A DNA stretch of 40,058 nt, taken from the IMG/VR virus record IMGVR_UViG_3300037587_000326, positions 1 through 40,058 of that record. One strand, given 5' to 3'. The notes under the pieces are model-generated. The model had not been told where the DNA came from. It saw nothing but the letters and a program-made list of their open reading frames with translations, and made no database searches. The translations under genes and the position numbers were made by a program. Of the stretch, positions 971 through 40,058 are shown one piece after another (position 1 is the first letter of the stretch; each line of letters begins with the position of its first letter). This DNA is from a virus.

Positions 971-1437
971 TCGGACTTAACGCAAAAGAGTTACCAATCA
1001 CACAACCGATGATTTTGAAATTGATTACGTACGGCTGTGGTGATACGTACGAACCAAGTGAGTTTAGATCAGTTGAGAATAAAAATCACATGAAGCCCAA
1101 AGGAGGTTTATGGGCATCCCCTATAAATTGTAACTATGGGTGGCGCGAGTGGTGTGATGATAACGATTTTGGGGATCGATCCACACAGTTTGAAATTATA
1201 TTTACAGGCAACGTACTCGTTATCAACAGTGCTGCAGATATTGACTTGCTTGACTGGCGAGATGATGTCTTCTATCGAAGCATTGTTGACTACGAAAAAC
1301 TACAAGGCCGTGGCGTCGATGCAATATACATAACCGAGAAAGGAGAGCAGGAAACAAGGTTTTTACAGCCTCGTGACTTGTATGGTTATGACTGTGAGTG
1401 TGTTTTAATTATGAACCCCGAAGGGATTGCAGGATGA
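967..1437 (+). CDS. Phage protein with KPKGGLWASP motif, unknown function (156 aa)
   Basis: The GTG start at 967 follows a GAGGAAGG ribosome site and overlaps the previous stop. The protein carries a KPKGGLWASP motif (about residues 43-52), then GWREWCDDNDFG at about 58-69. From memory, proteins with this GGLW-S-P / W-W-C pattern occur in many phages and in Firmicutes and lack an assigned function, so the name is descriptive only. The end overlaps the start of the polymerase gene by 4 bases (ATGA), so expression is probably coupled to replication. Confidence 0.75.
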   Translation: MIGLNAKELPITQPMILKLITYGCGDTYEPSEFRSVENKNHMKPKGGLWASPINCNYGWREWCDDNDFGDRSTQFEIIFTGNVLVINSAADIDLLDWRDDVFYRSIVDYEKLQGRGVDAIYITEKGEQETRFLQPRDLYGYDCECVLIMNPEGIAG

Positions 1438-2594
1438 TCGGGCTCGACATCGAAACCGCTCCAGACAACGGCGCACCGCAGGAGTACGCGCTGCAGCCAT
1501 GGCGCGTCAAAGAAGGGACTGCGAAGATCACAGCGATGTCATTGGCGCGGTCTGATGGCCAAGCGATGCTAGTTGCCGATCGTACGGATGATCTATTTCT
1601 CGGTGGGCGTAAGTACCAAAGTATTTTAGATCACGCACGCGATACTCACGAAGCCATCTGCACCTGGAACGGCATATTCGACGTGGCCTTTCTAATCGCA
1701 GCTGGGCACGACATATCTAACATCAAATGGCTCGATGTCATGCTGCTGTGGAAGTGGTACTCAAACTCTCAGCGTATGGAGTGGCTACCAGCTTGGTCGT
1801 TAGCCGATGGCGCCAAGCGCTGGCTCAAGGACTGGCCGCACCTTGAAAAGTTCTTGGAAATGAAGTCCGAAGATATCGAAGCCGGCGAGAATGACGAGTA
1901 CTGGGAGCTGCGCTGCAAGATGGACTCCCTGGTGACGGTTATGATCGCAGAAAAAGTCTGGGCCAAGCTCACACCACAGCAGCAGCGCTCAGCTATGATC
2001 ACCATGCAGTGTATCGTGCCGACGGCGAACTCATGGGTTAATGGTGTGCGGCTAAACTTTGGGATTATGAGTGAGATGCTACCGAGCGTCACACAGGAGA
2101 TGTTTGAGCTGGAGTGCAAACTTGGTATCAGCAACGAGCCGCATGCATGTGAGGGCACGATCGTCGGTGGTAAGTGGGTACCATCAAAAATCCTGCGATC
2201 ACCAAAACAGATGGGTCAGCTGTTGTACGACACGTGGGGTTTGGAGTGCACCATGTTTACGCCGAAAATCGATACCGCAGTAACGGAGGCCGAGAAGAAA
2301 AAAGCACGCGCCACGAACAAGGCAGCACTCACCTACCTAGCAGATCACGACGACCGAGTACTGGACATACTACGATGGCGAGAGCTGAACACACAGCTAA
2401 CCAAATTTATCGAGTCGCCAGCGAAGGCGAAGGAATATTTAAACTCGGAGACTATGCACCCGTCACCGCGACTGTTCAGCACGTACACTGGGCGCATGAC
2501 GTATCAGAGCAAGACCAAAAAGAAATTCTTCACCGGCGTGGCGCTGCACCAATGGCCGCGAAATAAAAAACTGAGGGGGTTGATTCATGTCTGA
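1434..2594 (+). CDS. Family-A DNA polymerase, N-terminal half (3'-5' exonuclease and thumb)
   Basis: This 386-residue protein holds the proofreading exonuclease and the first part of the polymerase domain of a T7/PolA-type enzyme. Exo I is DIET at residues 5-8; Exo II is the WNGIFD segment near 82; Exo III is near CKMDSLVT at about 162, with no clear Tyr at the usual place. Near the end are WRELNTQLTKFIESP (thumb) and TGRMTYQSK followed by HQWPR, which normally come just before motif A. The frame stops after LRGLIHV, where an intact enzyme would continue straight into the motif A strand. That continuation is in the gene at 3728. I chose ATG 1434 because translation from there begins at the exonuclease core and overlaps the preceding stop; an upstream in-frame ATG at 1398 would only add 12 residues inside the previous gene. 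Confidence 0.9.
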   Translation: MIGLDIETAPDNGAPQEYALQPWRVKEGTAKITAMSLARSDGQAMLVADRTDDLFLGGRKYQSILDHARDTHEAICTWNGIFDVAFLIAAGHDISNIKWLDVMLLWKWYSNSQRMEWLPAWSLADGAKRWLKDWPHLEKFLEMKSEDIEAGENDEYWELRCKMDSLVTVMIAEKVWAKLTPQQQRSAMITMQCIVPTANSWVNGVRLNFGIMSEMLPSVTQEMFELECKLGISNEPHACEGTIVGGKWVPSKILRSPKQMGQLLYDTWGLECTMFTPKIDTAVTEAEKKKARATNKAALTYLADHDDRVLDILRWRELNTQLTKFIESPAKAKEYLNSETMHPSPRLFSTYTGRMTYQSKTKKKFFTGVALHQWPRNKKLRGLIHV

Positions 2595-3528: not shown

Positions 3529-3750
3529 ATGTGTGATAGCACCTGTACGAAAGGGATGCCAGAGAAGATATCTATTGAAGATATGTTAGCTGCTGCTGAT
3601 AAAATGAAGTCTCTACCTGTCGAGAGCTTCATGGGATTTCCAGTGGTAGAAAATCCGGCACTTAAATCAAATGAAGTGATTGTAATGGTTAGCAGTGATT
3701 ACATGAAAAAGTTAAAAGCACAGACAAATGAAATACCTAGTCGAATTTGA
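3529..3750 (+). CDS. Small protein of unknown function overlapping the polymerase C-terminal half (73 aa)
   Basis: Not recognised. A strong GGAGG site lies 8 bases before the ATG, in a context (GGTAGATCATGTGTGA) resembling the starts of the 2587 and 3062 genes. Two cysteines occur at residues 2 and 6. The last 23 bases overlap the start of the C-terminal polymerase gene in another frame, so ribosomes finishing here could re-initiate on that gene, which has no good ribosome site of its own. Confidence 0.7.
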   Translation: MCDSTCTKGMPEKISIEDMLAAADKMKSLPVESFMGFPVVENPALKSNEVIVMVSSDYMKKLKAQTNEIPSRI

Positions 3751-4495
3751 CGCCGCCGGCCAAGAGGCGCGGTTCATGGCTGAGTTCAGCCAGGACGAAT
3801 CGATGCTGAATATCTTCCGTAACGACGGTGACTTTCACAGCAACACAGGGAGTGCGATCAGTGGTATTCCATACGACGAATTCATGGCTCGAAAGGCTGC
3901 TAAAGATCCTGAGATCGTTGGAGAGCACGGCCTACGTTACTGCGGTAAGTACGTCGGACTTTCAAACCAGTACAGAGTCGGAGCGAAAAAGTCGCGGCTG
4001 ATAGCACGAGTCCAGTACGGGATCGACGAGAATATACACGTCATTCGGAACTGGCAAAAAGCGTATCACCGCATGTACCCGGGTGTAAAAAAATACTGGG
4101 GTGCTGCGATCCGAAAAGCTAAAGAGGCCGGCTACGCAGAAACACTAGCCGGCCGGCGGTTCGCGATCCACAGCTGGTCTGGTGATGATCGGTGGGGCTC
4201 GGAGTCGAGTGCGATAAACTTTCCGATTCAGGGATCTGGCGCTGATATGAAAGAGCTGGCCATAGCGATCATGGCGCATAAGCACCCTGAGTTTGTGTTT
4301 TCGTTTGATCTTCATGATGGTTTATTTTACGTGCTGGAAGTCGAGAGTGAGAGTCATGCGATTGTAGAGATCAGAAAAGCAAGAACAACACTGGATAACC
4401 TGCCCTACGAATCGGCGTGGGGTTGGAAACCAACAATTAAATTTCCTTGGGACGCAGCGTATGGGACGGATTGGGGCCACATGGAGGAGTTATGA
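3728..4495 (+). CDS. Family-A DNA polymerase, C-terminal half (palm and fingers)
   Basis: This 255-residue protein carries the catalytic core missing from the gene at 1434. Motif A is FDAAGQEAR (catalytic Asp at residue 8), motif B is the RYCGKYVGLSNQYR region (about 68-81), and motif C is LHDGLF (about 197-202, metal-binding Asp present, HDG in place of the commoner HDE). The start falls at the beginning of the motif A strand, matching the point where the first half stops, so the two products together make a full-length enzyme with little loss. No convincing ribosome site precedes ATG 3728; coupling to the overlapping 3529 gene, or joining at RNA level, are the alternatives. Frame upstream of 3728 closes after four codons. 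Confidence 0.88.
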   Translation: MKYLVEFDAAGQEARFMAEFSQDESMLNIFRNDGDFHSNTGSAISGIPYDEFMARKAAKDPEIVGEHGLRYCGKYVGLSNQYRVGAKKSRLIARVQYGIDENIHVIRNWQKAYHRMYPGVKKYWGAAIRKAKEAGYAETLAGRRFAIHSWSGDDRWGSESSAINFPIQGSGADMKELAIAIMAHKHPEFVFSFDLHDGLFYVLEVESESHAIVEIRKARTTLDNLPYESAWGWKPTIKFPWDAAYGTDWGHMEEL

Positions 4496-9674: not shown

Positions 9675-9916
9675 AGCAGACACTATTGAATATCGCTGAT
9701 CGACTCGATGCTCGTGTTAAAGTATTTGACACATTCCCACGCACACAAGCGACGGATGCGATGAAGGGCATCGGCGGTGATATAGCAGCGATCATACGCC
9801 TTGAAGCTGAGTCGATGGGTGACACCCCAGGACTTACTTCTGACGACATCAAAGCCATCGTCAACGAACAACTCACTGAATTAACAGCTCCAACCAAAAA
9901 GGCAGGTAAAAAATGA
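9671..9916 (+). CDS. Small protein of unknown function (81 aa)
   Basis: Not recognised. The GTG start at 9671 is preceded by AAGGAG at good spacing and overlaps the previous stop. The protein is helical, acidic in the middle and ends in a Lys-rich tail (PTKKAGKK). Its stop overlaps the start of the ssDNA-binding-type gene, so it may be co-translated with it. Confidence 0.7.
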   Translation: MKQTLLNIADRLDARVKVFDTFPRTQATDAMKGIGGDIAAIIRLEAESMGDTPGLTSDDIKAIVNEQLTELTAPTKKAGKK

Positions 9917-11028
9917 CAACGGAAATCGCAACACTAGCAGGAGCCCAGCTCCCCGCGCACATCACTGGCGGGGCGGAACAAGCCGCCGGCATGGTAACGT
10001 CCGAGTCGGTACCTCGAATCTCACTACGGGACGCGTCGTTCATTCTGAAGAAGGATGGTGACGAAATCAAGGTCGGTATGGCCAAGCCCATCCAGGTGGT
10101 GATTATGGGTATCGACCCGCCTGAGCCCAAGCACACCGCGAAGCAGTGGTACGGCGGCGCTTGGACCGAGGATTCTGCAGACGCACCAGACTGCTTCTCC
10201 AACGACGGTATCCGCCCTGATCAGTCGATTGCAGAGCCCCAGTGGGGTACCTGCGCCCATTGCCCTAAGAATGCGTGGGGGAGTGGCCACGACGCTGATG
10301 GTAACGCCAGTAAGGGCAAGGCATGCTCAGACCGCAAGAGCCTGCTGGTCGTGCTGAGCGGCAAGCACATGGACGGTGACGTGTTCAGGCTGTCCGTACC
10401 TCCAACGTCGCTCAAGGCGCTGAGTACCTATGGCCGCGAACTGGTTCGGTACAACGTCAATATGCACAAGATCGTCACTCAGGTCTCCGTGGACGAAGAC
10501 AATCCCAAGGCCATGCAGTTTGGGTACTCCGGGTACCTGAATGAGGCTGACGCCACGCGTATGGCTGCACGCGCCGGGAGCCCAGAAATTAGTGAGATGA
10601 TCCACAAAGCGCTGCCGGCGCCTGATAGCGGTCCAAGCATGGCGAGCCCAGAGCCTGCCGGTGCCTCAGACGAGTTGGATCTCGACGCGCTGGGCGGGGA
10701 GCCTGCAGTTCAGACACAGTCGCGCGGCAAAGCCACGAAATCAGTTCAGACACAGACTGAGAAAAATCCTGCTGTCGATGATGTAGAGCAGGACAGCGCA
10801 GGTCACACATGGGATGGTAACATCCACAGCGGTAGCAAGACTAAGTTGAAAGCTGATGGTACCTGGAAGCTCAAGCGTAGTGTCACAGCAGATATGGCCG
10901 CTGAAGTACTGTCAAAGCAAGGTGTTGTAGCAGAGTCTCAAACGACATCTGAGCCTACCCAAGAATCCGCCAGTTCGACTGAGGGTGATCTGGATGATCT
11001 GCTAAGTAATTGGGGCGACAACGTATAA
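9913..11028 (+). CDS. Probable phage single-stranded DNA-binding protein with zinc site
   Basis: The 371-residue protein has an N-terminal core (about 1-210) with cysteines at 94, 114, 117 and 138, including CAHCPKNAWGS and GKACSDRK; this arrangement is seen in a group of phage replication proteins taken to bind ssDNA. The region after about 215 is disordered, Ser/Gln/Ala-rich, and the C terminus is acidic with an aromatic residue (DLDDLLSNWGD), as in ssDNA-binding proteins whose tails contact partner proteins. It is the last gene of the block, followed by a terminator. The assignment rests on pattern and context, not on a classical OB-fold match. Confidence 0.65.
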   Translation: MTTEIATLAGAQLPAHITGGAEQAAGMVTSESVPRISLRDASFILKKDGDEIKVGMAKPIQVVIMGIDPPEPKHTAKQWYGGAWTEDSADAPDCFSNDGIRPDQSIAEPQWGTCAHCPKNAWGSGHDADGNASKGKACSDRKSLLVVLSGKHMDGDVFRLSVPPTSLKALSTYGRELVRYNVNMHKIVTQVSVDEDNPKAMQFGYSGYLNEADATRMAARAGSPEISEMIHKALPAPDSGPSMASPEPAGASDELDLDALGGEPAVQTQSRGKATKSVQTQTEKNPAVDDVEQDSAGHTWDGNIHSGSKTKLKADGTWKLKRSVTADMAAEVLSKQGVVAESQTTSEPTQESASSTEGDLDDLLSNWGDNV

Positions 11029-17583: not shown

Positions 17584-20500
17584 TTACTCCAGTTTCTCAC
17601 CGTAAATTGGGTGCCCTAAGAATCCAGCCATCCCAGATACACCCTGATCTGCTACCTGCTGTGCAAAAATCGGTACGAACTTTTTCCCGACAAGCCCTGC
17701 ATTAGCATAGCTCTTTTCCCAGAATGTCGCATCATCCGCGTATAGTGGAGGGTCACTTGACCGTCCTGAGAAGTACTCGATCCCCTTCGCCAGCTCAATT
17801 GCTGTCTTTGGGAGGATACCGCCCTTGTTGATAAATGTCTTACCTGGACTATCCACCCAGTGAAATGGCTCTACGAATTGTTTGGAGAACGTCATTCTCC
17901 GACCATCCCCCATATCAACCATTGTAGGGTCTTCGTTCTCCCAGATTGGTTTGCCTGTATACAGTATGTTAATCGCAGAGCCTGCGGTCGCAAAGAACAG
18001 CGCGCCTCTGGCCGCGTAATACTGGTGCATGCGAGTAATTCGCTTATTCTTAGCGACTCCGGGGATTGCTTTCAAGAGTACCCGAACATTCGCAATCGTC
18101 CAATCTGGGGCGAATAGCCCTAGTTGCAGCCATTTACGCGCGTTGGGGTTGAATGCTGCCATGGCGATATCGCGCCCCAATTTAGACTTCGTACCTTCAG
18201 CAATTCGGCGCCAGTTTAGCCCGCCAAAGGCATCGTTCGTGTACTCAGCGACTTCAGCAGCTAATTGCTCGCGTGGGATCAACGGGAACTTTTTAGGGTC
18301 TTTTGCATGCTTCGCAGCGTTATTTAATAGGGCTTTTTCCATCTCATTCGCAAATACAGCTAGTTTGCCGCCAGTCGCGATTTTATCCCACATAATGTCA
18401 TCGACTACACGGTTTAACTTCTCGACGCCCTTAACTGCAGCGCCTCCCACAACTGGAAGGATGTCATCGGCGATACTCTGAATATCCTTGAGCGCTGCGT
18501 AGAACACGTCTGAGCCTACATCTTCGATCACACCGATCTTGAGCCCGGCTCTCAGCGCCTCATCTACCATATCGCCGGCTTTGCCATGGGCGAGCTGGTG
18601 CAGCGCTGGTACGATCTTGTGAGGGCTCACACCGGCGTACACCATGGACTCCATAAGTGCATTCGCGTGGAAAAAGCTCATTGACACCAGTGATCGCTTC
18701 ATGGCGAAATTCAGCGCCAACACACCACGCATAATCACATTTGGATCAGTGCTGTGATATATGAAATTCAGCGATGGTGCGATATCCGGATGTACCTTCT
18801 CCCCAGAGAATTGCGGGTGATTTAGTGATACATAGCCTTGGGGTGCTGGCTGAGCGGACTGCTCAGCACGACGAACACCTTCTCTGGCCTTTTCGAGATT
18901 GCCTGTCTTGCCCGCAGCGACACGAGCTTCTATGCGCTTCAGCTTCGCTTGTGCAATTGCAATATTTCGAGCTGCTGCTGACCCTTCTTTAGCTGTTAAC
19001 GGTCGACTCCCAGATCGCATAACCAGTGGGTTTCCATCCGGCGCAATTTCTTTCCGCAGCGCCTGTGCGAGCTGCTTGTTTCGGATTGCTCGATACACAC
19101 TATCCGAATACATCTTGAATATCTCTGCGATATCGAGCGTCACAGGTTCAAGTCCAGCGTCGATACCGGCTTTTAGTGTTGGTATGACACGCTGCCTGGC
19201 GTGTACTGTCTTGGTACCCATACCCCCCGTCGCGCCAAGCTGGTCTGACAAGATCTGCATAATCTCAGATTTTGACTGGCCTTTTTGGCGCCAGAAATGA
19301 GGTACGTAATTGTCGAGATACGATTCAAGTACACCTTCTTTTTCAGCTACACGAGCTACTTCGTCAAACATACCTCGAATCTGCTTCGCTGTGATTTGCT
19401 CGCTCGCGGACAGTTTCTGTGTCTTGTCTCCTTCGAGCCAGTGAGCTATCGCCTCTCGCTGTTTGGGCTTTGGCACATCTACTTTTACTGCCTCTTTGTA
19501 CTGCCATGTCGATCTATAGTGTGTTGAATTATCAGCCTCGTGCATGTTCGTGAGATCATCAATACGGATGCGATTGTCAGGCTTCGTCACAAATTTGTAC
19601 GAGTTAATCACACCCTTGCCAAGTACTCTCAATGTACGGCCAGCCAGTATCATACCAACTGTAGCTCCAACGCCGACAGCAGCTCCCAGGAGCGGATCAT
19701 CCGCGCCCCCAGCTCCTACAACCGCACCCAGGCCGATAAAGGCTGTGGTGGCCAGCACCTTCGGGTCGGCCTTGCCTGCGTGGCGTCGTGTCCACAGTGC
19801 GTCCTTGAACGCTTTCTGCATCGGTGTGTCAAAAGGTCTGTGATCAACGAATTTCTGCGCTCTGGCGAGCTCCTTAATTTGTCGAAACCCAGCTTCCTGC
19901 TCGATTCGTTTAGCCACATCTAGGCCGAGTTCGACCTGTTGGTGAGCGCTGATCCTCGCACCGTGCTCGGCAGCCGCTATATCGTCCGCGACAACTCGCT
20001 CAAGTACTTCGATCTCTTTCGCAAGGGCATCACTACCACGTGCGTGAAGTGTCCGTACCGGGCCTACAAGGGGCTCTACAGGCTCTGTTTCAAACTTCGG
20101 CACCTTTGTAACTGGTTTCGCACCTGTCACAGCCTTGGCAGCGGCTCCAATACCTTTAAATGCACCCACGAGCAATACAGACGCAGCGGCGCCCAGCTCA
20201 GCATCAAGTGCGACGGCTTCAGGATCTGTGATCTCACCTGCCTCGCCAAGCTGCTCCCCGGCGGAGATGGCACCCGTTACAGCAGCGCCTGCGGCGGCTG
20301 TGCCGGCAGCGCCAGCAGCGACTTCACCGGTGGCGACTGCTTTTGTTGTAATTCCCATGCGTGTGAGCGCCGCACCGGTGCGTGTGGCTGCTATGCGCCA
20401 ACCTATTGGTGTGGTAAGCAATTCTGGGGCTTTCGCTACTGTATTAGCAAACTCTGCAAAAAAAGCACCTGGATCTCGATTGAATGCCTGTTTAACAGTT

Positions 20501-33345: not shown

Positions 33346-33588
33346 ATGGATCTATCTACCAAAAACTTAGCAGAAGCTATCAGTGTTAGCTGGCGTACTG
33401 CTCAAGCTGCGACAACTTGCGAACTACATTGCCACCGATGGTCCGCGGTACTGGCGGAGCTGGAGGGTATGAGACTGCTTATAAACCATTGCGGTGGTGC
33501 TAAAGGTAGGAACTCCCCCGCATATATTGAAAGTGTGTGGCTCTGGAATATCGCCCTTGAGCATTTGGCGCATGGGTTTAAACCATGA
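33346..33588 (+). CDS. Early-type small protein of unknown function (80 aa)
   Basis: Not recognised. It is the first gene after the divergent promoter region, with GAGGG 8 bases before its ATG. The protein is helical and has three to four Cys/His residues in the first half (TCELHCHRW near 25-33), plus CGG near 49; a metal site is possible. Genes at this place in phages often act on host functions early in infection, which is an inference from position only. Confidence 0.7.
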   Translation: MDLSTKNLAEAISVSWRTAQAATTCELHCHRWSAVLAELEGMRLLINHCGGAKGRNSPAYIESVWLWNIALEHLAHGFKP

Positions 33589-33698
33589 AACACATCTACC
33601 GATACATCGAAAAAGACGCGCTGATCATAATCGGGTGCTTTCTGCTACTAGGGCTTTCCGAATCCCTGGTGGACGTGCTCTATAACTTCTTTCATTGA
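33585..33698 (+). CDS. Single-pass membrane microprotein (37 aa)
   Basis: The frame begins with an ATG that overlaps the stop of the preceding gene (ATGA) and encodes 37 residues: a charged N terminus (MKHIYRYIEKD) followed by one hydrophobic helix (ALIIIGCFLLLGLSESLV) and a short tail. The overlap, the clear N-in membrane topology and the following gene 11 bases away make it credible in spite of its size. Confidence 0.6.
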   Translation: MKHIYRYIEKDALIIIGCFLLLGLSESLVDVLYNFFH

Positions 33699-33708
33699 GG
33701 GCTGAATC

Positions 33709-33996
33709 ATGAAAACCTTTAAACAGATCGCTTATGCATTCGCAACATCCACCAACGCCAAAACCCTCGGCTTTAACGCTGAAGGTTGCTGGTTTGTCGA
33801 GGTGTACGGGATCATAGAGGGAGTACAAATGCCCCCGGCTATTGCACACAACTGCGAAGGCTTTAAAACCCCTGATGATCCTGATTTAATCGCCTTGTAC
33901 CACGAATATTCCGGCGATATAGCACCCGCTTTTGAGCAATTTGGCAACGCTGAAGCACTTCAAGCAATCAGTGATTGCCAACAACAGGAAACCTGA
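33709..33996 (+). CDS. Small acidic protein of unknown function (95 aa)
   Basis: Not recognised. A weak GAGGGC site precedes ATG 33709. The protein has a short beta segment (GCWFVEVYGIIEG, about 26-38) and an acidic helical second half (DDPDLIALYHEYSGDIAPAFEQFG in part), ending in QQQET. It is soluble with no membrane segment. It belongs to the early-type cluster of nine small plus-strand genes. Confidence 0.65.
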   Translation: MKTFKQIAYAFATSTNAKTLGFNAEGCWFVEVYGIIEGVQMPPAIAHNCEGFKTPDDPDLIALYHEYSGDIAPAFEQFGNAEALQAISDCQQQET

Positions 33997-34000
33997 ACCC

Positions 34001-34135
34001 ATGAACTCATTCAATAAAGACTGCAAACCCCGTCCCAAATTCTCAAACTTTGAACGCGGGCTTCTAATCGCCGTGCTGGTATCTGGCGCCACCGTTTTAG
34101 TGACGACTGGCCTTATTTTATGGCTTTTTAACTGA
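34001..34135 (+). CDS. Single-pass membrane microprotein (44 aa)
   Basis: The ATG at 34001 starts a 44-residue protein with a basic N-terminal half (MNSFNKDCKPRPKFSNFERG) and one C-terminal membrane helix (LLIAVLVSGATVLVTTGLILWLF) that ends at the last residue. The topology is clear: N-terminus in the cytoplasm by the positive-inside rule. It lies 4 bases after the previous stop. Function unknown. Confidence 0.6.
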   Translation: MNSFNKDCKPRPKFSNFERGLLIAVLVSGATVLVTTGLILWLFN

Positions 34136-34145
34136 GGACAAAACT

Positions 34146-34307
34146 ATGACAATGCGCGATTTTATCAAAGAACACCGGGAAGCCCTTGACGCGGCCATCA
34201 AATCCGTTTGCCCCAATTGCGCGCTCAATGACAGCGAGCGCCGCGAGTGGATCGTGAATGACGAAGGCTTATATTCTTGGGCTCAGTCTGAAGGTGTAAG
34301 AATTTAA
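34146..34307 (+). CDS. Small protein of unknown function (53 aa)
   Basis: A GAGGA site precedes ATG 34146, and the 53-residue frame fills the gap between the membrane microprotein and the next gene. The sequence has VCPNCALND near residues 19-27 (one CxxC) and a charged helix (SERREWIVNDEG); two more metal ligands are not obvious. Not recognised. It was found by reading the gap. Confidence 0.6.
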   Translation: MTMRDFIKEHREALDAAIKSVCPNCALNDSERREWIVNDEGLYSWAQSEGVRI

Positions 34308-34322
34308 ACCAGGAGAAAGACC

Positions 34323-34643
34323 ATGAAAGTAGAAAACATGACAAGCCCGCGTGGCAATACCGTTGCTAATCAATTCATCCTTACGGGTTTTAAGCACTTC
34401 GGAGGCCCCGACAACCTCCCGATGTCTACGAGCCGCTGCGAAGTATTCCAGTCGTATGACTCAATAATTGCTGAGCGCATTTTTGATGTCGTGTCGGGCG
34501 ACCCTATTATTAGGCTTGACAAAAACTACTGGGACTACTCACGCACCACCGGCAAGTATCGCAACCAATTCTTGGGTGAGACCAAAGCCGAAACACAGAA
34601 AAAGATTGATTCGGGAGAATATATCCTGACCGATCTCAACTAA
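34323..34643 (+). CDS. Conserved phage/plasmid-type protein (106 aa)
   Basis: The pattern MTSPRGNTVANQFIL (residues 6-20), CEVFQSYDSIIAERI (about 39-53), WDYSRTTGKYRNQFLG (about 69-84) and DSGEYILTDLN at the end is one I have seen often in phages and plasmids (I believe it belongs to the DUF8033 group). The function is unknown. AGGAG precedes the ATG at good spacing. The complete conserved ends suggest an intact gene. Confidence 0.75.
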   Translation: MKVENMTSPRGNTVANQFILTGFKHFGGPDNLPMSTSRCEVFQSYDSIIAERIFDVVSGDPIIRLDKNYWDYSRTTGKYRNQFLGETKAETQKKIDSGEYILTDLN

Positions 34644-34653
34644 AGGCCCGACC

Positions 34654-34848
34654 ATGTACACCTTAAGACTAACAACCGCCAAGAACCAGGTTATCCAGCA
34701 CTCGCACCACGAGCCGAGCTACTTGTTCAAACTAGCGGGCGATTATTCAGACTGCCGAGCCTGGGCGATCATGCGCGCCGGGTCGCTGGTTAAGAAATAC
34801 GTAAACGATTCGCACTTGCCCGCAATGCTGCGGGTTCAATCTGATTAA
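34654..34848 (+). CDS. Small basic protein of unknown function (64 aa)
   Basis: Not recognised. The ATG is 10 bases after the previous stop, with only a weak ribosome site (AAAGG). The protein is compact, mixed alpha/beta, with HSHHEPSYL near residues 16-24 and a helix about 35-50. It forms part of the early-type cluster. Confidence 0.6.
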   Translation: MYTLRLTTAKNQVIQHSHHEPSYLFKLAGDYSDCRAWAIMRAGSLVKKYVNDSHLPAMLRVQSD

Positions 34849-34860
34849 GAGGGTAATCCA

Positions 34861-35097
34861 ATGACACACCAAACCAAAACGCTGGGAGCCGCGCCAGTAA
34901 CACCGACATATAAGATCCACGCTCGCTTACTCGCAAATGTTTTTGAGAAGTCCGGGAGATCGCGAACTGAGGCTATGTTCACCAAACTCTGCGACAAGTA
35001 CAGCCTCAAACGCTGGGAGATGTCGGCACTCTCAAATGAGTTTAGAATTGAACTTAATCGCCGAGGTATTGATCCACTCAAGAGGACTAAACCATGA
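34861..35097 (+). CDS. Small basic helical protein of unknown function (78 aa)
   Basis: Not recognised. GAGGG precedes the ATG. The sequence is helical and basic (RTEAMFTKLCDKYSLKRW and IELNRRGIDPLKRTKP), suitable for nucleic-acid or protein binding but without a clear helix-turn-helix. It overlaps the next gene by 4 bases (ATGA). Confidence 0.65.
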   Translation: MTHQTKTLGAAPVTPTYKIHARLLANVFEKSGRSRTEAMFTKLCDKYSLKRWEMSALSNEFRIELNRRGIDPLKRTKP

Positions 35098-35285
35098 CCA
35101 ACACAGCCATACTCTACCAGTCTTTACGATTCGAGCACCGAGAGGTCGCGCGCAAGTTTTACGAGTACGTGGGACCACAACCGGAGGGCAAATTTCTCGA
35201 TCACTTAAAGGCCGAGAGCCCGGCGCCAGGGTTTATCGTAATCCTGGATGATGACGGCGCGCCGATCAAATCACTACCGTACTAA
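35094..35285 (+). CDS. Small protein of unknown function, last before the origin region (63 aa)
   Basis: Not recognised. It begins in an ATGA overlap and ends 9 bases before the G-run that starts the iteron region. The first half is helical and charged (FEHREVARKFYEYVG), the second beta-type (GFIVILDDDGAPIKSLPY). It terminates the early-type cluster. Confidence 0.65.
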   Translation: MTNTAILYQSLRFEHREVARKFYEYVGPQPEGKFLDHLKAESPAPGFIVILDDDGAPIKSLPY

Positions 35286-35300
35286 CCTAAAAAGGGGGTC

Positions 35301-35433
35301 TGACTCAGCCACTGAGTCAGTCTTTTGCTCTGAGTCAGTCTTTTTGGGACTGAGTCAGTCTTTTTTAGGGGGGTCTGACTCAAAATACCTGTTTATATTC
35401 AATGACATACCAAAAAATACCCTCACTGAGTCA
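35301..35433. repeat. Left group of six TGASTCA iterons
   Basis: The copies are at 35301-35307 (TGACTCA), 35313-35319, 35331-35337, 35351-35357 (all TGAGTCA), 35376-35382 (TGACTCA) and 35427-35433 (TGAGTCA). Four of them, all pointing left, are followed by GTCTTTT, giving the unit CTGAGTCAGTCTTTT. The two opposite copies share the 14-mer GGGGGTCTGACTCA (35294-35307 and 35369-35382), so a 75-bp local duplication probably built part of this group. Confidence 0.95.
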
Positions 35434-35497
35434 GTCTTTTGGGTAAAAACGACATTGTATGTATACGGTATGGTTGAGGCAGGGGTACCCCTACCCC

Positions 35498-35530
35498 TAT
35501 ATATATATACTACTACTACTACTACTATAA
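35498..35530. repeat. (TA)6-(TAC)6 AT-rich block between the iteron groups
   Basis: An alternating TA run at 35498-35509 passes directly into six TAC triplets at 35508-35525 and then TATAA. The block is placed between the left and right iterons, where a DNA-unwinding element would be expected. Microsatellite length may vary between isolates. Confidence 0.9.
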
Positions 35531-35538
35531 AGAAAGAC

Positions 35539-35681
35539 TGACTCAGTAACTCAATATTCCTACAGGCGTTGGTACACAAGGGCTACAGACTGAGTCAATC
35601 TCTTGGAAAGACTGACTCAGACACTGACTCAGCCAAAGACTGACTCAGCTGTATCTCTAACGCAGTTTGAACACTGACTCA
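35539..35681. repeat. Right group of six TGASTCA iterons
   Basis: The copies are at 35539-35545, 35591-35597 (inverted), 35613-35619, 35625-35631, 35641-35647 and 35675-35681. Five point right and one left, the reverse preference of the left group, so the array is roughly symmetrical about the AT-rich block. Copies at 35539, 35613 and 35641 have the full AAAGACTGACTCAG; those at 35625 and 35675 have ACACTGACTCAG. Neighbouring spacings of 12, 16 and 34 bases are irregular. Confidence 0.95.
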
Positions 35682-35693
35682 GAAAAACCTTGG

Positions 35694-35722
35694 TTGACAG
35701 ATCAAAATGCATGTATTACAGT
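35694..35722 (+). promoter_or_regulatory. Sigma-70-type promoter for the replication initiator genes
   Basis: A perfect TTGACA (35694-35699) is separated by 17 bases from TACAGT (35717-35722, 4 of 6 matches to TATAAT). The last iteron ends 12 bases upstream of the -35, so a protein bound there could control the promoter. It would transcribe the HTH, zinc-ribbon and PrimPol-helicase genes. Confidence 0.6.
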
Positions 35723-35761
35723 CTATTATTCTAGTCGTTCAACAATCACCAGGACCACCCC

Positions 35762-36019
35762 ATGGCCTACCTAACGCCGGAACAAGCCGCTGACTTGGCA
35801 GGTATCTCACTTGGATACCTTAACCACCTCAGAACCAAAATCTCAATTGATAGTGGCCGCACCGGACCCCCTTACTTTATAGTGAAGTCGGACCCGCTCG
35901 TAACGGGGTTCGCAAATCCCGTGCGTATTCGATACGATGAAAAAGACATCATCGAGTGGGCCGCCGAGCGCAAAGCTCGAAAAGCCGCCAAACCAAAAAT
36001 CACACGATTCGCCAGCTGA
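35762..36019 (+). CDS. Excisionase/MerR-like helix-turn-helix DNA-binding protein (85 aa)
   Basis: Residues 4-30 (YLTPEQAADLAGISLGYLNHLR in part) form the first helix and HTH of the excisionase/AlpA-type winged-helix family, and RIRYDEKDIIEWAAERKARK (in part, about 55-74) is the following wing and last helix; the family usually reads 'R-Y-x-x-x-D-v-x-x-W'. A basic tail completes the protein. There is no integrase here, so excision is unlikely. It starts 80 bases after the last iteron and is the best candidate for an iteron-binding regulator or initiator accessory protein. Confidence 0.8.
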   Translation: MAYLTPEQAADLAGISLGYLNHLRTKISIDSGRTGPPYFIVKSDPLVTGFANPVRIRYDEKDIIEWAAERKARKAAKPKITRFAS

Positions 36020-36020
36020 T

Positions 36021-36269
36021 ATGGACAACAATACAAAAATTGGATTCTGTGCTGAAACACACAAGCAAGACTACAAATGCGCCAACTGCGGGCATGAAAA
36101 GAGTTTTGGCCAGATAACAAACCACTATGAACATAAAATTGTTGAGTGGGGTGACAAGGTTTGTCCTGAATGCGGGTTTAAATCACTCAAGCCGATACCT
36201 TTTTCGCTGGAGTTAAGTGCTGAAGTTACTGAGTCAATCCGTAAAACCATAGCCAAACTCCAAAAATAA
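36021..36269 (+). CDS. Zinc-ribbon protein (82 aa)
   Basis: Two CxxC pairs, CANC (about residues 20-23) and CPEC (about 48-51), with the second in the VCPECGF context, form a zinc ribbon. A helical, acidic C terminus (ELSAEVTESIRKTIAKLQK) follows. ATG 36021 is 1 base after the stop of the HTH gene; longer frames that start inside that gene are rejected. It probably acts as a small DNA- or protein-binding partner in the replication operon. Confidence 0.75.
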   Translation: MDNNTKIGFCAETHKQDYKCANCGHEKSFGQITNHYEHKIVEWGDKVCPECGFKSLKPIPFSLELSAEVTESIRKTIAKLQK

Positions 36270-36299
36270 CTAGATCGAAAACAACAACGGAACCCACGT

Positions 36300-38870
36300 A
36301 TGTCTAAACTACTGGACCAAGCCCTCGACCTCGCAGCGCAGGGATACCGAGTACTCCCGCTGCGCAGGGGGGCCAAGATCCCAAACCTCTCAGAGTGGCA
36401 GCGACTCGCCACCACAGACCCTGCCACCATTCGCAAGTGGTGGAATCGCCACCCTAACGCCAACGTAGGACTCGCCACGGGCAGCACGTTCCTCGTAATT
36501 GACGTGGATACCAAAAAGGGCGCGAAGGGCGCACAGTCGCTCTCAGAGCTGCGAGCCGCGCACGACCTGCCCAAGACATACACGGTAAAGACACCATCCG
36601 GCGGGATACACCTCTACTACAAGCACCCGGACCCTGCCCGGCCTATCAAAAACACCGTGAGCATCAAACTACCGTGCCTCACGGCCACCAAGTCCGGCAT
36701 CGACATACGCGCCGAGGGTGGTCAGGTGGTAGCCCCCGGGATGTACCTCACAGACCACCCCGACACGCCGTACACCATCATATTCGACATACCCATGGCT
36801 GAGTTGCCGGAATCACTGGCAGAGCAGCTACCATATAAGGACCGACAAGATGAGTTGGAAACACAAAACACACAGCGCTCGGCGCAAACGAGCATTACGC
36901 AGGAGAAAAGCCATGAAACCACTCTGGGACGACAGCCGAATAACACCCAAACGTCGCCTGAGCGACCACCCCACACCGACAATCCGCAACAGGAAGACCA
37001 GGCGCTGCGTGACAGCGTGTATCGTGATTTACCTGACTACATTCGGAGCACTGATGGTATACCTGGCTCAGGTGGTGGGGTTGGTGGATTAGTCACCGAT
37101 GATGATCCATCCGAATACTCTAAAATTCCTGATCGAATACCAGCGGGCGGCCGTGATGACACACTATTTCGTTTTATGTGCTCATGGAGAGAGCGTAACT
37201 ACCCTCTCGCACACGCTGAAATCCTCGCAAGGGAATTACACCTACGTCTTGAACAGCCTAGAGGGGATGAGATATCACTGAGCAGCATCATCCTCAAACT
37301 CCACCGCACGTACAAAACATATAACCCATCCGCGCGCGACGAGGCTGAGCTACAGGCGATAACACCCACCCAGCCGATCGCAGATACCCGGGAACGCTCG
37401 ACGACACCCAGGCAGCACGCACCACCCAGTGACGACAACGCACTGCCGGACCCGGCCGGCGAGTACGCGGACATCATCGAAGTCCCACCAGAGGGCGTGC
37501 TGGACACCGTCCAGGCGGCGCTGAATCGCTTTGTGTTCTGTATCGAGGGCAACGTGGTGATCGACACCATCAAACACCCGGCGTACGCGACGATCCGTAT
37601 GGACGCGTTCAAGTCAGCCTTCGGGAACATCATGCTGCGAACCAGCACACGGGAGAACGCGAAGTCGAAACCCCTGCCGGATATCTGGCTGAAGCACAAG
37701 AATCGGCAGACGGTGGATGATTATGGATACAAACCGAACGGCCCGAAGGTGTACGAGCACCTAGGGACTAAATTTTATAACAAATGGGCGCCCTCAGAGG
37801 TCGCCGAGGAGTTGAAAAATGGATTGGAATGCAATGACAGAGATAGTGGTGATCATAGCTGTAGCAGCGGTATCAATAGCTCTGCTGAGGAGTTGAAACC
37901 ATTCTGGAACCACCTCGACTACCTGTTCGGGGACGACGAGAAAGAAAAGCAGGCCTTTTGGCGCTGGCTGGCTTTTTCAGTCCGGTACCCGGAGCGACGC
38001 GTCGCGCATGGCGTGCTGATTGTATCAGCCCCCGGTGTCGGGAAGTCCTGGTATTACAAACTACTGCAAAAGCTGGTGGGTGTGTACGAGGTCAACACAG
38101 CCGGGAACAACGAGCTGAACTCCGACTTTAACGGGTGGGTATTTGGCTGCTCCATGGTGGTAATTCATGAGCTGATGACGGGTAGTAAGCAGCACATGAT
38201 GCAGCAGCTGCTGAGCCTGATCACCGAGGAGCGGATACTGATCAACGAAAAGCACAAGCAGCCACGGATGCGCGATATCTTCGCGAACTTTCTGTGCTTT
38301 TCGAACCATGCCAACGCAGCGGCGCTGGGAGCCATGGACCGACGGTTCTTTGTCTACATGTCCGCAGCGGTCAAGGAATCCAACGAATACTATAAAAAAT
38401 TATTTGCTTGGTTGGACACCGACGGGCCGCTGCACCTCCTACAGCACATACACCAAATGGACCTCAGCGATTTCAACCCGGGCGAGGCGCCGATGACCAC
38501 AGCAGCCAAGCGCAGCATGACACACGCCAACATGTGCCTGGTCGAGCAGGCCATAGTCGAGGCAGTTGAGGATCGAATCGGGCCGTTCGTGAGCGATGTC
38601 ACAGCCGCCGAGATCGTCGAGAAGTGGTTGGAAGCCCGTATGGAGATGAGCCGCCAGGACCGGTACAAAATACGCACCACACTCACCAATTTCTGCCCAC
38701 CGCTGCGCCAGAGTCGGTACCGATTTCATACTGACCCGAAACAGCACCGGCTGCGAGCCGTGCGTAACGGCGCCCGCTGGGCGAAAGCCGACACGATCGA
38801 TGTACTAAATGAATTTGAAAAATCACTGACAGCGACGAGCGCCCCAGTGACTAAGTTGGAGGTTGTGTAA
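36300..38870 (+). CDS. Bifunctional primase-polymerase / SF3 helicase (856 aa)
   Basis: Residues 5-170 are a Prim-Pol domain: GYRVLPLRRGAKIP, WWNRHPNANVGLATG, the metal-binding VIDVDTKKG (Asp68, Asp70), SGGIHLYY (His104) and GIDIRAEGGQVVAPG. Residues 185-280 are a low-complexity linker. The C-terminal helicase (about 535-720, DUF5906-like) has Walker A SAPGVGKS (576-583), Walker B MVVIHE (619-624), a sensor Asn in FSNHANA (667-673) and DRRFFV (680-685) as arginine finger. The order recalls the NrS-1 phage enzyme, which primes and extends by itself. It would prime and open the adjacent origin. Residues 503-532 include an 81-bp in-frame insertion, and two other-frame ORFs lie within the gene. 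Confidence 0.93.
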   Translation: MSKLLDQALDLAAQGYRVLPLRRGAKIPNLSEWQRLATTDPATIRKWWNRHPNANVGLATGSTFLVIDVDTKKGAKGAQSLSELRAAHDLPKTYTVKTPSGGIHLYYKHPDPARPIKNTVSIKLPCLTATKSGIDIRAEGGQVVAPGMYLTDHPDTPYTIIFDIPMAELPESLAEQLPYKDRQDELETQNTQRSAQTSITQEKSHETTLGRQPNNTQTSPERPPHTDNPQQEDQALRDSVYRDLPDYIRSTDGIPGSGGGVGGLVTDDDPSEYSKIPDRIPAGGRDDTLFRFMCSWRERNYPLAHAEILARELHLRLEQPRGDEISLSSIILKLHRTYKTYNPSARDEAELQAITPTQPIADTRERSTTPRQHAPPSDDNALPDPAGEYADIIEVPPEGVLDTVQAALNRFVFCIEGNVVIDTIKHPAYATIRMDAFKSAFGNIMLRTSTRENAKSKPLPDIWLKHKNRQTVDDYGYKPNGPKVYEHLGTKFYNKWAPSEVAEELKNGLECNDRDSGDHSCSSGINSSAEELKPFWNHLDYLFGDDEKEKQAFWRWLAFSVRYPERRVAHGVLIVSAPGVGKSWYYKLLQKLVGVYEVNTAGNNELNSDFNGWVFGCSMVVIHELMTGSKQHMMQQLLSLITEERILINEKHKQPRMRDIFANFLCFSNHANAAALGAMDRRFFVYMSAAVKESNEYYKKLFAWLDTDGPLHLLQHIHQMDLSDFNPGEAPMTTAAKRSMTHANMCLVEQAIVEAVEDRIGPFVSDVTAAEIVEKWLEARMEMSRQDRYKIRTTLTNFCPPLRQSRYRFHTDPKQHRLRAVRNGARWAKADTIDVLNEFEKSLTATSAPVTKLEVV
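36913..37092 (+). CDS. Overprinted membrane protein inside the PrimPol-helicase gene (59 aa, tentative)
   Basis: In the +1 frame relative to the helicase gene, ATG 36913 has AGGAG exactly 7 bases upstream and opens 59 codons. The product has a basic N-terminal region (KPLWDDSRITPKRR, RNRKTRR) and one strong membrane helix at about residues 33-53 (VTACIVIYLTTFGALMVYL). The host frame here is the disordered Q/T/P-rich linker (residues 205-264), which is where overprinting is tolerated. It is not proven to be translated; the same frame stays mostly open to 37281. Confidence 0.45.
   Translation: MKPLWDDSRITPKRRLSDHPTPTIRNRKTRRCVTACIVIYLTTFGALMVYLAQVVGLVD
37819..37896 (+). CDS. Overprinted 25-aa transmembrane peptide inside the helicase gene (tentative)
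   Basis: The +1 frame has GAGGAG (37806-37811), a 7-base spacer and ATG 37819, and encodes 25 residues: a polar start (MDWNAMTE), a pure hydrophobic helix (IVVIIAVAAVSIALL) and RS. The segment is an 81-bp in-frame insertion in the helicase, bounded by the 12-mer GAGGAGTTGAAA at 37806-37817 and 37887-37898. The helicase frame there reads as a Ser/Gly/Asn/Asp-rich filler (residues 507-532). The ribosome site lies in the left repeat, and the stop TGA lies in the right repeat. Confidence 0.45.
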   Translation: MDWNAMTEIVVIIAVAAVSIALLRS

Positions 38871-39814: not shown

Positions 39815-40017
39815 AAATCGACACACTAACAGTACACGCGCAGATTACACTGAAAATAGATAGTCCTGAAGCTATCAGGCTATCCAGTATGTTTTCGAGT
39901 GGTGATAAAGTCGTAGGTCTTGTTGATCAATTCCCGTGGATGCCTTTTATTGTTACCAAAGTAACAACAGAAAGGGTCGCGTCAACATTTGAATTGAAAA
40001 TGGTTGGGAGGAAGTAA
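39811..40017 (+). CDS. Small protein spanning the genome join (68 aa)
   Basis: ATG 39811 overlaps the previous stop. The 68-residue protein looks like a small beta-sheet with one helix (HAQITLKIDSPEAIRLSSMF; VGLVDQFPWMPFIVTKVTTERV). Its last 27 codons lie in the terminal repeat and reappear at 3-86. It may be distantly related to the 67-residue protein at 38963. In the circle the next gene is the 66-residue one at 160. Confidence 0.75.
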   Translation: MKIDTLTVHAQITLKIDSPEAIRLSSMFSSGDKVVGLVDQFPWMPFIVTKVTTERVASTFELKMVGRK

Positions 40018-40058
40018 CCATCACACCTCTTTATAGACCTATAAAAATTACTCGGGCG
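39932..40058. repeat. Right copy of the exact 127-bp terminal direct repeat
   Basis: These bases equal 1-127 without a mismatch. Joining the window at this repeat restores an unbroken gene and a plus-strand operon that runs from 35762 through the join to 11028. The true unique genome length is then 39,931 bp. Confidence 0.95.

Follow-up and report, generated by a model that had tools for sequence, protein, structure and literature searches.

Does the dense array of short repeats in the longest non-coding region of this phage genome mark the site at which its DNA replication starts and, if so, what kind of origin is it? The window, the whole stretch of 40,058 bp analysed here, is a complete circular contig, as its ends (1-127 and 39932-40058) are identical over 127 bp, leaving a genome of 39,931 bp. 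The length of this overlap fits an assembly k-mer overlap better than a true terminal repeat, suggesting the former. Packaging, head and tail genes are podovirus-like by sequence comparison—resembling, for example, those of MW202510—and the virus is one of bacteria. Genes point leftward from 11 to 33 kb and rightward elsewhere, with the array falling within the rightward block, in a gap of 476 bp; the runner-up among the non-coding regions measures 214 bp (Table 1). Rfam and tRNA scans returned no matches.

Table 1 Positions of the repeat array, its internal elements and the phage's replication genes in the window
Feature	Position	Strand	Basis or remark
Family A DNA polymerase, N-terminal part	1398..2594	+	phrog_17 positions 671-999
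Family A DNA polymerase, C-terminal part	3728..4495	+	phrog_17 positions 1007-1235
Non-coding region holding the array, putative origin	35286..35761	none	longest gap of the genome
Hairpin from the first two sites, then a T run	35300..35320	+	consensus match no commoner than by chance
Left iteron group: four full AAAAGACTGACTCAG units, core-only TGACTCA at 35301 and 35376	35300..35440	-	units 35312-35326, 35330-35344, 35350-35364, 35426-35440
12-bp palindrome AGGGGTACCCCT	35481..35492	none	between the two iteron groups
(TA)6 then (TAC)6, candidate DNA unwinding element	35498..35525	none	(TA)6 at 35498, (TAC)6 at 35508
Right iteron group, three near-perfect units	35532..35682	+	units 35532-35546, 35606-35620, 35634-35648
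Right iteron group, weaker units	35618-35632, 35668-35682, 35590-35604	+, +, -	part of 35532..35682
Promoter-like TTGACA-17-TACAGT before the HTH and PrimPol genes	35694..35722	+	not above chance
85-aa protein, weak HTH_17 match; possible regulator or accessory factor	35762..36019	+	profile match
82-aa zinc-ribbon-like protein	36021..36269	+	sub-threshold matches
856-aa PrimPol-SF3 helicase, presumed initiator, primase and helicase	36300..38870	+	Prim-Pol and DUF5906 domains

The initial annotation had described twelve TGASTCA sites within 381 bp, a unit repeated in full at least seven times, a left group pointing mostly left and a right group pointing mostly right, and an AT-rich microsatellite with a 12-bp palindrome between them; each of these observations was reproduced. 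The twelve sites lie within 35301-35681 and make up most of the 17 in the genome, where shuffling gave a mean of 6.2 per genome, or ~0.06 per 381 bp; in 2000 shuffles of the 476-bp region, the mean count was 0.14 and the maximum 3. The sequence AAAGACTGACTCAG occurs in seven exact copies, all of them in the array and nowhere else in the genome, four on the minus strand (35312, 35330, 35350, 35426) and three on the plus strand (35533, 35607, 35635). The fuller unit reads AAAAGACTGACTCAG, with its last 14 bases exact in seven copies and three weaker copies in addition, while the two remaining sites carry the core without a fuller unit. As the TGASTCA core is palindromic, it is the conserved A-run on one side that gives the units a direction: all four clear copies of the left group are on the minus strand, and five of the six clear and weaker copies of the right group are on the plus strand, the sixth being on the minus strand. 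Between the groups, the palindrome, (TA)6 and (TAC)6 were all found, and the 50-bp segment starting at 35498 is the second least stable duplex of the genome.

Signals for transcription in the region were less distinctive. The perfect TTGACA promoter that had been proposed stands as far as the hexamer at 35694 is concerned, but its partner TACAGT matches at four of six positions, and promoter-like sites occur in the region at chance frequency (2 found versus 1.6 expected), as do terminator matches. The hairpin formed by the first two sites could also terminate transcription of the upstream gene. No DnaA boxes were found near the iterons, the sole TTWTNCACA match in the genome being at 17660. 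The minimum of cumulative GC skew falls at 37.5 kb and so away from the array, in a profile confounded by gene direction. GC skew is negative through the rightward genes (33346-37500), although AT skew turns already at 33.3 kb, where the genes switch strand. When gene strand and codon position were treated separately, third-position GC skew of the rightward genes amounts to -0.16 left of the array, -0.20 at 35.8-37.5 kb and +0.11 in the remainder, a change that falls near the array, not at it, and is computed from few bases.

Downstream of the array, the predicted PrimPol-SF3 helicase gene was confirmed by the domains of its product and starts about 619 bp away. By sequence, the best solved relative of its helicase region is the NrS-1 polymerase (E=1.7e-34), with which the protein shares the combination of a PrimPol domain and a C-terminal SF3-like helicase, and its PrimPol domain matches PDB 1rni and 3m1m, of pRN1 ORF904 (E about 1e-5). 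A structure model built from 11 sequences has a mean pLDDT of 57, with the helicase part at about 80-90 and the primase part poor; Foldseek likewise ranked the NrS-1 polymerase highest (5.8e-18), followed by SaPI5 PriRep1 (7ola, 7pds) and poxvirus D5-type helicases. The HTH gene said to lie next to the array is present, but its assignment is soft, the HTH_17 match (E=2e-4) being under the Pfam cut-off. Similarly, the phage does encode its own family A polymerase, but split over two reading frames 1.1 kb apart. The profile positions of the two pieces are contiguous, the break falls just before the motif A region, and the ~1.1 kb in between holds small ORFs; Rfam returned no intron match.

Several known systems share parts of this layout. 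The P4 ori and crr likewise consist of short (8-bp) repeats on both strands, in clusters that adjoin a primase-helicase gene and precede a small HTH gene, and the window's protein weakly matches the helicase domain family of P4 alpha (P4-family primase C-terminal domain, TIGR01613; 2.2e-5, below cut-off). P4 differs in having a Toprim-type primase domain, two separate clusters and the repeat GGTGAACA. Its ori adjoins the start of an 88-aa regulator gene whose leftward gene series ends in alpha, an order similar to that of array, HTH and PrimPol in the window. In SaPI5 PriRep1, other SaPI Rep proteins and SCCmec Cch2, a self-loading helicase fold is again combined with iterons beside the gene (PMC7581432). 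SaPI Rep helicases bind the iteron origin directly downstream of their own gene via a C-terminal domain, and the C-terminus of the SCCmec helicase itself binds the repeats next to its gene (PMC7581432). Because the window's array is upstream of the helicase gene, beyond two small genes, whereas SaPI origins are directly downstream, it is not a SaPI origin in the strict sense and was not filed as such; the P4 ori and the array of locus L322 (see below) do not lie directly downstream of the helicase gene either. What the window does have in common with P4 and SaPI iteron origins are clustered short units in non-coding DNA, an adjacent SF3/D5 primase-helicase and an AT-rich, easily unwound segment.

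NrS-1, whose PrimPol-helicase is the best solved relative of the helicase domain in fold as well as sequence, has only two copies of an 8-nt site, TTTGGTTA, in its genome and no described array (PMC7102993, PMC8718748). pRN1 shares with the window a PrimPol domain (in ORF904), a small regulator gene in the same operon and an origin beside the gene; that origin, however, is a 100-bp stem-loop downstream, stated by the authors to have no iterons (PMC4234260), and thus unlike the window, which has iterons and no single extended stem-loop. According to a published comparison, PrimPol-SF3-winged-helix proteins assemble at stem-loops, with no iteron origin noted in pRN1 or BIP-1 (PMC4234260).

In the collections searched, the window's array was found on no other contig. 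Scanning IMG/VR with a 14-mer of the unit yielded single hits only, as expected by chance, and a two-copy pattern scan returned 18 contigs, none with a comparable array. Relatives by terminase, the best of them L133 at 76% identity, are either fragments or equipped with other replication genes, and neither among terminase and PrimPol relatives nor in the IMG/VR pattern scans did we find a close relative carrying the window's replication module. The five closest IMG/VR PrimPols (L213-L216, L219) and that of Roseobacter phage RDJL3 (L128), at 28-30% identity, have no detectable array, which counts against the array being an origin. In RDJL3, the gene annotated as integrase (L128:3956-6292) is a PrimPol-helicase by homology, so that annotation looks wrong.

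As no other contig had the window's array, we compared PrimPol loci in general, collecting 84 that were reduced to 64 by removal of near-duplicates; an alignment of very diverse PrimPols was unusable for scanning. Arrays were defined as at least 5 copies of an 8-mer within 450 bp with both strands represented, and the near zone as reaching up to 800 bp from the PrimPol gene. Both-strand arrays numbered 12 in the near zones (107 kb) versus 3 far from the gene (413 kb), a 15-fold enrichment (p=1.4e-6) across the 64 loci. Since the zone had been set after the first set was seen, loci retrieved only once the pattern had become apparent were held out for a separate test, which gave 6 near versus 1 far (p=6e-4). 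The detector found no arrays in shuffled sequences and, run on phage P4 as a control, returned exactly the annotated ori and crr. The near count includes two doubtful arrays, the second of L224 (a minisatellite) and that of L275 (in the 3' end of the gene), and falls to 10 versus 3 without both. Among the far arrays, that of L227 begins where a separate SF3 helicase gene ends, at its stop codon, which is in line with a rule of arrays beside helicase genes. It comprises twelve copies of ACCCTCCA on both strands (L227:9888-10188), the gene ending there being that of a P4-like helicase. Repeat arrays thus tend to sit beside PrimPol genes across many of the phages compared, and duplex stability tends to be low where they lie (KS p=8e-5).

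Individual loci of the set vary in their arrangement, most arrays being downstream of the PrimPol gene, not upstream, a second point against the origin reading. Just upstream of its PrimPol gene, with a helicase gene next, L322 has three copies of TTTAGTGT, an AT-rich core and six copies of ACACTAAA; as far as its sequence tells, this is the window's design in another repeat. In L302, triplets of GGTTTCTG flank an AT-rich stretch on both sides, and in L218, GTGACTACC stands to the left and the complementary sequence to the right. L271 carries many copies of GTGTGCCA after the PrimPol stop codon, with one inverted pair around TATATATTAAAATATATA. This region (L271:6840-7568), in which the repeats and an AT-rich palindrome lie just 3' of a PrimPol gene whose product includes a RepA-like helicase domain, is itself a striking origin candidate. 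Other apparent arrays were rejected on inspection: that upstream of PrimPol in a Thiohalocapsa phage (L127:4058-4491) is pentapeptide-repeat coding sequence, those of L224 (9067-10007), L260 and L258 are largely minisatellites, and that of L264 is coding.

Could the array serve something other than replication? If the 85-aa HTH protein or a host factor bound the palindromic CTGASTCAG to control the rightward operon, with replication starting elsewhere, a palindromic core would equally suit a dimeric transcription regulator, and the HTH gene directly after the array, the promoter-like site at its right edge and the terminator-like hairpin of the first site pair would all have a place. An operator nevertheless needs less than twelve sites across 380 bp with a readily melted core in their midst, the A-run makes the units directional, the HTH match is weak, and the arrays of the comparative set are tied to PrimPol and helicase genes, mostly past the stop codon, where an operator is unexpected; we consider an operator cluster unlikely. 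Still less probable are integrase arm sites, a partition site or a neutral minisatellite. The attP arms of P4 are also short repeats, but for an integrase or ParA the window has no unassigned plus-strand frame of that size except 9913-11028, which matches phage families of unknown function, and the array's irregular spacing and use of both strands argue against a minisatellite.

Other alternatives accept an origin and change how it is recognised. The inverted groups might fold into a large hairpin recognised by PrimPol, as ORF904 of pRN1 relies on a stem-loop next to the gene encoding it (PMC4234260), and single-strand folding of the array is indeed far stronger than that of shuffles (z=-6.6). 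Yet this energy is a trivial consequence of inverted copies of one unit, the copies are also direct repeats within each group, and the predicted fold is not one hairpin, rendering a pRN1-type origin very improbable. That the small HTH protein binds the iterons and loads the PrimPol-helicase, as RepC does in RSF1010, is a possibility we take seriously while doubting it: its gene lies between the array and the PrimPol gene, and P4 likewise has an HTH gene beside ori, but tblastn found no phage homologue of the protein, its structure model is of low confidence, and the C-termini of the SaPI and SCCmec helicases bind repeats themselves (PMC7581432).

In our view, the phage quite probably starts its replication at the array, which would be an iteron origin of the P4/SaPI kind. 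This reading, already put forward in the initial annotation, is the best supported by the largest gap, the unwinding-prone core, the PrimPol-SF3 neighbour and the comparative enrichment of arrays near PrimPol genes, the last of which is its main support. The further suggestion of an unusual replication system was not borne out, as iteron origins beside primase-helicase genes are known in P4 and SaPIs and similar arrays recur in many PrimPol phages here. Most likely, then, the sequence of the array is new and the kind of origin already known, what sets this one apart being its position upstream and the mirror-image arrangement of its groups.

Because SaPI and SCCmec helicases bind repeats next to their own genes (PMC7581432), and with P4 alpha as a further precedent (PMC4234260), we infer the following course of binding, melting and initiation. 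The PrimPol-helicase would bind the AAAAGACTGACTCAG units, probably via its C-terminal region and perhaps aided by the small HTH protein, and form rings to either side of the AT core. It would then melt the core and prime DNA synthesis, and the phage's family A polymerase would extend the primers. By occupying sites upstream of the gene that encodes it, the PrimPol-helicase may in addition regulate the operon.

More tentatively, the mirror-image groups might load two PrimPol-helicase rings head to head around the AT core, so that a tailed phage encoding a family A polymerase of its own would replicate bidirectionally, much as T antigen achieves for SV40 or E1 for papillomaviruses. PrimPol phages in general might rely on private iteron arrays as origins, at odds with the published suggestion of stem-loops. 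We regard these wider proposals as speculative, though the loci compared do suggest that many PrimPol phages use iterons instead of stem-loops. For this uncultivated phage, the array provides a concrete origin candidate. If such arrays are origins, a simple rule would serve to locate origins in viral metagenomes, and a set of pairs of initiator and site would become available for biochemistry.
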